Position numbers and translations under genes: made by a program. From a candidate division KSB1 bacterium (lineage in GTDB: Bacteria > Zhuqueibacterota > Zhuqueibacteria > JANLFK01 > Oleimicrobiaceae), in assembly GCA_024655945.1 (NCBI GenBank), contig JANLFK010000010.1, forward strand, positions 62,001-126,000: 64,000 bases of DNA, in the 5' to 3' direction. Shown one piece after another: positions 24,847 to 25,858 of this stretch (positions are counted from its first letter, which is position 1; each line of letters begins with the position of its first letter). A model generated the notes under the pieces. That model saw nothing but the letters and a program-made list of their open reading frames with translations. It did no database searches and was not told the DNA's origin.

Positions 24847-25009
24847 CCTCGGAGAGGCCTCCGGCACCTGCCTGTTGCATTTGTGCGCCGTTTCTGCTAT
24901 ATCGCATGGCCGATGAGAGTACTCGGGCAGACACTCCAGGCGTCAAGGCACAGCACTGCGCGAAGCCACGAGTGCATGTGCGATGGGCCAGTCAGCCGTA
25001 GGAGCTTCG

Positions 25010-25858
25010 GTGAGTAGTTTGCGCGCGCCCATGCGGTGCACGCGCACCGCCGCGGAGGTCGCCATCCTTGCCGGTCAGTTGCGTGCGCACGCCTTGGGCA
25101 AAAAGGTGATTCAAGCCTCTTTTCCACCAGCTTGGGCGGGTGAGTTGCCGCCACGGCCGGAAACGCTTCTGTACGGCTCGCGAGTGGCGGGCGTCGACCG
25201 CTTTGCCACCTGCCTGATCGTAGGCTTCGACACAGGGCTCTCCATGGTGCTGCAGCTTGCCAAAGGGGGCACGGTGCGCTGGGTGACCGGCCCCGAGCCG
25301 ACTCCTGAGGAAGGCCGGATGGCCGTGCGCTTCGAGCGCGACGCCTGGCTCTTGGTGAGCGTGGAAGCCCCTGGGGCGACGAGGCTGCTGCCCAGTGGGA
25401 ACCTCCATCGCCTGCCGCCGCTCAAGGGACTTGGCGCGGATGTCCTGTCCGCCGAATTCACTTTGGAGGTGCTCCGCGCGGCGCTCGGCAAAGCGGGGAA
25501 CCGCATGGTGCGTCCCTTGCTCCTTGACCAGCGCCGCATCGCCGGGCTTGACGAGCCAATTGTGGACGATATCCTGCTCCGGGCACGCATTCACCCGCGG
25601 GCCGAGGCGCGCCACCTCTCTGCGCACCAGCAGCGAGCTCTTTTCGAGGCCATGCGGGAGGTGCTGCGGCAGGCAGTAGAACAGGGGGGCTCAGCAACCA
25701 CGGGCTTCGTAGACCTGCAAGCCAAGCGAGGCAGATTTCGTTCCGCGGGCTGGGACGCGCGCAGCCGCACGTGCTGGAGGTGCGGCACTCCTCTCGCTCG
25801 CCAGCTCTGCGCGCGTCGCCCCTGCTTTTTCTGCCCGCTGTGCCAGGAGCTCTCGTGA
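25010..25858 (+). CDS. Fpg/Nei-like protein lacking the catalytic N-terminal proline
   Basis: A 282-residue relative of formamidopyrimidine-DNA glycosylase. The H2TH region (LLDQRRIAGLDEPIVDDILL then RARIHP) and the C-terminal zinc finger (CWRCGTPL and FFCPLC) are present. The catalytic PELPEV start, whose proline opens the damaged base, is replaced by RTAAEV and lies about ten residues inside. The GN-Y turn of the H2TH is replaced by DEPIV. It could bind DNA but should not cut in the classical way. GTG at 25010 has AGGAG at good distance; ATG at 25034 and at 24983 are alternatives. It lies 163 bp after a radical SAM gene. Confidence 0.72.
   Translation: MSSLRAPMRCTRTAAEVAILAGQLRAHALGKKVIQASFPPAWAGELPPRPETLLYGSRVAGVDRFATCLIVGFDTGLSMVLQLAKGGTVRWVTGPEPTPEEGRMAVRFERDAWLLVSVEAPGATRLLPSGNLHRLPPLKGLGADVLSAEFTLEVLRAALGKAGNRMVRPLLLDQRRIAGLDEPIVDDILLRARIHPRAEARHLSAHQQRALFEAMREVLRQAVEQGGSATTGFVDLQAKRGRFRSAGWDARSRTCWRCGTPLARQLCARRPCFFCPLCQELS

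Follow-up and report, generated by a model that had tools for sequence, protein, structure and literature searches.

The window analysed here, a 64,000-nucleotide (nt) stretch of a candidate division KSB1 genome (contig JANLFK010000010.1, positions 62,001-126,000), encodes an Fpg-like protein in which the residues that Fpg/Nei enzymes use to cut DNA have been replaced. Catalysis by the known mechanism is very probably lost, and we propose, with roughly even confidence, that the protein is a non-catalytic paralogue of Fpg that probably binds nucleic acid.

A diverged member of the Fpg/Nei superfamily

The protein belongs to the Fpg/Nei superfamily by homology and not by chance, as judged from its sequence. 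It scores 117.1 bits (E 8.9e-34) with the NCBIfam model TIGR00577 (fpg), below the curated cut-off of 203.3, and is matched above cut-off by the Pfam families H2TH (63.1 bits) and Fapy_DNA_glyco (26.7 bits); in the same Pfam scan of the window protein its zinc finger was not scored by zf-FPG_IleRS. The Nei models NF007763 (82.5 of the 252 bits needed) and NF040775 (41.5 of 400 bits) are missed. The closest sequence in the PDB is Thermus MutM (1ee8, E 2.7e-21). The source genome (G000) contains one further Fpg match, an ordinary enzyme on C6 with the motifs MPELPEVET...GVGNIYANE...CPRC...CPGC and a TIGR00577 score of 302.6 bits, which covers the normal job.

A two-lobed MutM fold is predicted by an AlphaFold2 model, for which the window protein was aligned to 29 viral-contig Fpgs (predicted local distance difference test, pLDDT, 86.6; predicted template modelling score, pTM, 0.85; residues 1-10 with pLDDT below 50). 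Comparison of the model using Foldseek and VIA-align, the structure list of the latter being restricted to the matches of the former, ranks MutM structures highest (E 2.7e-22; Z 31.4, root-mean-square deviation 2.2 over 267 residues). Model residue 12 (Arg12) sits on MutM residue 2 and Thr13 is at the place of Glu3, so that the sequence RTAAEV lies exactly where PELPEV is expected. This is as given in a preliminary description of the DNA, whose open reading frame, coordinates and motifs, including the retained zinc finger and H2TH frame, are all confirmed.

Loss of the catalytic residues

Orthologues are present in two other genomes of the genus (G001 and G002), and residues are numbered below as in the genome's own Fpg (Met = 1), with replacements listed in the order window/G001/G002. 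The catalytic positions are all changed, Pro2 to R/R/L, Glu3 to T/S/S and Lys58 to T/T/T, as are Gly172 (D/D/D) and Asn173 (E/E/A) in the H2TH turn. Other replacements are at His73 (Q/Q/A), Met76 (K/K/Q), Arg111 (E/E/P), Phe113 (P/P/T) and Tyr243 (W/W/W). The four zinc-binding cysteines, Arg265, Gly170, Pro187 and Glu6 are kept in all three proteins. PELPEV, which the preliminary description had suggested looking for in orthologues, is absent from them, with only its second half kept in G002 (as SAPEV), and the losses are common to all three. What distinguishes the protein from an Fpg (MutM) enzyme is its sub-threshold TIGR00577 score, an internal R/R/L where the N-terminal Pro2 should be, and the absence of Glu3, the lysine and the H2TH Gly-Asn.

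Counts of Pro2 and Glu3 in an initial 56-row comparison alignment were partly circular, because the rows had mostly been drawn with a pattern demanding a PE start, and were repeated on 92 distinct open Fpg/Nei frames fetched irrespective of motif, 89 of them besides the three orthologues. In these 89 frames Gly172 is universal and Asn173 is missing only once (88/89), and the loss of this pair is special to the Fpg-like orthologues. Glu3 is present in 83 of the 89, the exceptions (L032, L051, L089, L095, L097 and L098) being cut, broken or unaligned N-terminally. Pro2 alone is absent from several other Fpg/Nei frames; the frame at L051 (G011 C11), for example, begins MAEGHAV, with alanine for Pro2 and Glu3 kept. 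Losses at His73, Met76, Arg111 and Phe113 are not special, since these positions are variable in other Fpg/Nei proteins, and the same holds for Lys58 within some clades.

A comparison with 32 canonical Fpgs, in which positions 2-3 were read from a corrected alignment after MAFFT had misaligned those columns, shows that 12 of 31 invariant positions are kept by all three orthologues, among them the four zinc cysteines and Arg265. A further 34 residues are common to the orthologues yet occur in fewer than 5% of the canonical proteins, and the stretches LPPRPE and GGSAxTGF are invariant in all three. The net charge is about +13 in the window protein and ranges from +12 to +15 across the orthologues.

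The preliminary description held that loss of the N-terminal proline makes classical base removal impossible. Its outcome stands, in that Fpg-type catalysis should be impossible, but the loss of proline is insufficient to explain it: in mycobacterial Nei2 the P2A protein lacks apurinic/apyrimidinic (AP) lyase activity but keeps 5-hydroxyuracil glycosylase activity, which is lost in E3A and K51A, according to one account of that enzyme (PMC11323726). Because proline, glutamate and lysine are all gone from the Fpg-like protein, neither activity is expected, and we infer that it is unable to act as a glycosylase or an AP lyase. An enzyme that uses the Fpg scaffold for new chemistry is quite unlikely, although Thr67, Asp181, Trp248 and Cys267 are invariant in the orthologues and have no canonical Fpg counterpart; this invariance says little because there are just three sequences, and no recognisable catalytic set was found.

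Reading frame and gene features

Features of the Fpg-like gene and its downstream neighbour are listed in Table 1. The mechanical list of open reading frames opened the same frame at ATG 24983, and we regard GTG 25010 as the likely start because it is preceded by AGGAG and because the G001 orthologue has an ATG at the matching place, itself preceded by AGGAG. The G002 orthologue has an ATG 17 codons ahead of the residue matching Pro2.

That the gene encodes an active Fpg/Nei enzyme with a misread start or frame, one of the possibilities by which the preliminary description was to be judged, can be dismissed with near certainty. No PEL or PEY start is found in any forward frame of the region in the three genomes scanned, and between the starts and the conserved Glu6 none of the three has a codon able to put the Pro2 position at the N-terminus. 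Lys58 and the Gly-Asn pair are lost as well, which no choice of start would repair.

Table 1. Positions in the window of the Fpg-like gene, its sequence features and the gene that follows it.
Feature	Coordinates	Strand	Remarks
Fpg-like protein without catalytic residues	25010..25858	+	282 aa; stop TGA 25856-25858
Shine-Dalgarno-like AGGAG	25000..25004	+	5 nt 5' of GTG start; from sequence
N-terminal extension, 11 residues ahead of Pro2 equivalent	25010..25042	+	From model and structural alignment; predicted disordered
Arg12-Thr13 replacing catalytic Pro2-Glu3	25043..25048	+	Structural and sequence alignment; orthologues R/R/L, T/S/S
Thr67 replacing active-site lysine (Lys58 of the genome's own Fpg)	25208..25210	+	T in 3/3 orthologues
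H2TH turn GLDEPIV replacing G(V/L)GNIY	25544..25564	+	Phosphate-binding Asn lost; from alignment
C-terminal Cys4 zinc finger (C255, C258, C275, C278)	25772..25846	+	Arg270 (Arg265 equivalent) kept; from alignment
Conserved gene down206, 206 residues	25855..26475	+	Likely GTG start; alternative ATG 25924

Selection, distribution and origin

The Fpg-like genes of the window and G001 differ with nonsynonymous (dN) and synonymous (dS) divergences of 0.102 and 0.551, a dN/dS of 0.185 (bootstrap 0.115-0.265), and the canonical Fpg pair of the same two genomes gives 0.191 (0.134-0.283). Pairs with G002 give 0.215 and 0.244, values that are less reliable as dS is near or above 2. Since its dN/dS equals that of the true Fpg, the gene is under selection and not decaying. 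The C-terminal half is the more constrained (0.118 versus 0.251 N-terminally), but the true Fpg trends alike (0.150 versus 0.217) and the contrast therefore does not set the Fpg-like gene apart.

A relic of duplication heading for loss is accordingly a very improbable description of this gene. Its product is 83% identical to that of G001 and 48-49% identical to that of G002, which puts it among the least conserved genes of the neighbourhood between G000 and G002, but the frame is intact in all three genomes and dN/dS is far below 1.

The Fpg-like protein is present in all three genomes of family f1. With a profile of the orthologues, scores above 500 bits are seen only in these three genomes of the genus (60 relatives and all 82 searched genomes of the phylum), and the next-best match in the 82 genomes, at 117.7 bits, is a canonical MPELPEV protein. 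In other collections, scans used short exact peptide patterns or tblastn on limited collections and may have missed orthologues; within those limits none was found in genome_contigs (two pattern scans) or viral_contigs, and plasmids and phages yielded remote Fpgs only, leaving horizontal acquisition unsupported. Several INPHARED 'phage' records (Listeria, Salmonella, Escherichia and Acinetobacter) carry a seemingly ordinary bacterial mutM and are probably host contigs.

Relationships within the superfamily were compared in two trees, one of 52 chosen rows and a second of 45 with trimmed N-termini, for which ten rows of the first set were dropped (including the two longest branches) and three actinobacterial rows added. 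The three orthologues group together (100/100) on a stem of 1.7-2.2 changes/site, and are placed by the trees beside a clade of Fpg/Nei proteins without Pro2 (L067, L043 and L091) with support of 96/86 in the first tree and 92/59 in the second. Members of this P2-less clade share the missing proline with the window protein, whereas they keep Glu3, the Gly-Asn pair and a short N-terminus. They start MIELPE, MFELPE or VIEIPE, with isoleucine, phenylalanine or leucine at Pro2, and are possibly a natural proline-less group that is active. The clade is also found on a Parabacteroides plasmid (WP_128577557.1, L187:2501-3331) and a faecal phage contig (MT838097.1, L188:101-919).

Profile comparison instead favours canonical Fpg (E 1.7e-39) over the P2-less clade (1.7e-28, with profiles of different depth) and over an actinobacterial Fpg2-type set (3e-28). 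That the Fpg-like gene is a recent copy of the genus's own Fpg gene is not supported, since a tree joining the two is worse (approximately unbiased, AU, test p 0.032, for a hypothesis chosen with the tree already known). An origin from the canonical Fpgs, taken together as a single clade, is not rejected (AU p 0.091).

Gene neighbourhood and the downstream family

Upstream of the Fpg-like gene are genes for an AgcS-type transporter, a GIY-YIG protein and a PA0069-like radical-SAM protein, and a consensus scan reveals no promoter- or terminator-like site between the last of these and the Fpg-like gene. Downstream are down206 and then a homoaconitase/LeuCD-like pair. The Fpg-like stop and down206 start overlap by 4 nt in all three genomes (GTGA in G000 and G001, ATGA in G002). 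Gene order is the same in the three genomes over the whole compared stretch (about 13.2-29.4 kb of the window in G002), and an operon logic drawn from the GIY-YIG and radical-SAM neighbours was dropped as evidence for this reason.

The down206 product has no Pfam or NCBIfam match and its single-sequence fold prediction reaches a pLDDT of only 45.6. It belongs to a family of proteins of about 180-206 residues with conserved QDxYK, HHS and PAYRV motifs, present in 38 of the 82 phylum genomes, 35 of which lack the Fpg-like protein. We read the upstream neighbours of the family at 34 further loci as well as the three of the genus, with only representatives run against Pfam and the rest sorted by eye. 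In family f7 an OGG-like helix-hairpin-helix (HhH)-GPD gene lies upstream at four loci (G041, G038, G044 and G026; Pfam 21.5-26.6 bits, cut-off 26.2) and its stop overlaps the start of the down206 homologue; at a fifth (G010) the two adjoin by coordinates. Elsewhere the upstream gene encodes a HemW-like radical-SAM protein (checked against Pfam for L161 and L221, which are one gene, and for L162), a MetH-activation-like protein (L236) or a MoxR-type ATPase (L244), and at the remaining loci it has no family or there is none close. With several kinds of upstream neighbour, down206 was rejected as a dedicated partner of the Fpg-like protein.

Upstream of down206 homologues, OGG/AlkA-like HhH-GPD proteins are encoded at L215:1374-2291, L217:1558-2496, L229:3072-3926 and L233:3066-4268. 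Those at L217 (47.8 bits) and L229 (64.1 bits) fall well short of the 397.9 bits required by the NCBIfam ogg model. By eye, the place that we take to be that of the catalytic lysine seemingly has none (GIGKTTA or similar), with an aspartate after it.

The link of the down206 family to glycosylases is suggestive only. It is noteworthy that one partner family adjoins two unrelated glycosylase folds, but with several other neighbour types this may be coincidence. An Fpg-fold pseudo-glycosylase and its co-translated partner could form a repair or nucleic-acid-marking module, with a sister family coupling the same partner to an OGG-like HhH-GPD protein, so that one partner would be served by two unrelated folds, although we hold this reading as a whole to be improbable.

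Function of the Fpg-like protein

The most probable scenario is that the protein is a pseudoenzyme, a diverged second Fpg/Nei member that has kept the two-lobed architecture of MutM together with its H2TH helices and zinc finger, while the cutting residues and most of those gripping the everted damaged base are gone. It would bind nucleic acid without catalysis, mainly through the retained C-terminal half (the H2TH face, the zinc finger arginines and the positive charge), and would work beside the co-translated down206 protein, either marking or shielding sites on DNA or delivering its partner. Of these steps, binding to DNA is the one we are least sure of, and the chances of a role on nucleic acid seem to us about equal to those of some other role.

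Several points weigh against this scenario. In MutM, K60, N174 and R264 contact phosphates, D110, R112 and F114 lie in the intercalation loop, and Y242-G243-R244 is DNA-binding, as described in PMC3188539; when these nine contacts are mapped by motif, the counterpart of R264 is the only one that all three orthologues keep, and binding of DNA in the normal lesion mode is doubtful. The AlphaFold2 alignment contained only canonical-type Fpgs besides the window protein, and the model is therefore drawn to the MutM fold. The neighbouring genes carry little functional information, because order is conserved over the entire stretch, and elsewhere the down206 family has many differing upstream neighbours.

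The preliminary description had offered a decoy, a damage sensor or a new enzyme. A decoy or lesion sensor acting in the normal mode is weakened, because nearly all of the DNA-contact residues are lost; the new enzyme survives with the low standing given above, and a different or non-specific mode of binding may apply. A protein acting like the alkyltransferase-like proteins (ATLs), as a damage sensor or lesion shield that recognises a lesion or abasic site and hands it to another pathway, would have precedents in the ATLs themselves, described as non-reactive relatives that flag lesions for nucleotide excision repair (PMC10779285), and in Mag2, postulated to protect AP sites (PMC4433238). The OGG-like proteins adjoining the down206 homologue in family f7 would also fit, but with Arg265 the sole MutM contact left we think such a sensor rather unlikely.

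The pseudoenzyme might instead act away from nucleic acid, its fold having become a scaffold for, or a regulator of, the co-translated down206 protein. The near-total loss of DNA contacts, the fixed 4-nt overlap and the orthologue-specific residues with their LPPRPE and GGSAxTGF stretches all favour such a role. Against it, the zinc finger, its arginines and the net charge have been kept, and the down206 family manages without the Fpg-like protein in most of its genomes, so that we give this alternative a minor share of the probability.

Relationship to known proteins

Few enzymes are as well conserved as DNA glycosylases; of the folds mentioned below, that of AlkD is a HEAT-like repeat and that of Mag is HhH. 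The Fpg-like protein resembles canonical Fpg/MutM (the C6 copy; PDB 1r2y and 1ee8) in its predicted two-lobed fold, H2TH helices and Cys4 zinc finger with its arginine, and differs in lacking Pro2, Glu3, Lys58, Gly172-Asn173 and the intercalating residues and in having an N-terminal extension. NEIL3, with Val2, likewise has a residue other than proline at this position, as do the window protein and the P2-less clade, but NEIL3 is reported to require removal of Met1 for activity and to keep its glutamate (PMC11323726), whereas in the window protein the position is internal and the glutamate is lost. Rv0944 (Fpg2) of Mycobacterium tuberculosis is also an Fpg paralogue without a catalytic N-terminus beside a working Fpg; it is described as truncated, with full-length orthologues in some mycobacteria (PMC2734929), whereas the window protein is full-length with residues replaced.

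Precedents for proteins of glycosylase fold without activity are AlkD2, AlkF/AlkG and Mag2, non-catalytic paralogues kept beside an active enzyme according to PMC4433238. These have other folds, and the likeness is one of situation, known here from sequence alone, and not of homology. The AlkD and Mag folds thus have such cases, whereas a limited literature search turned up no full-length, non-catalytic case for Fpg. Profile-based annotation could well label the Fpg-like protein an Fpg enzyme. The gene indicates that the Fpg fold, full-length, stripped of its catalytic residues and under selection like that on the true enzyme, can be kept for a use other than cutting.
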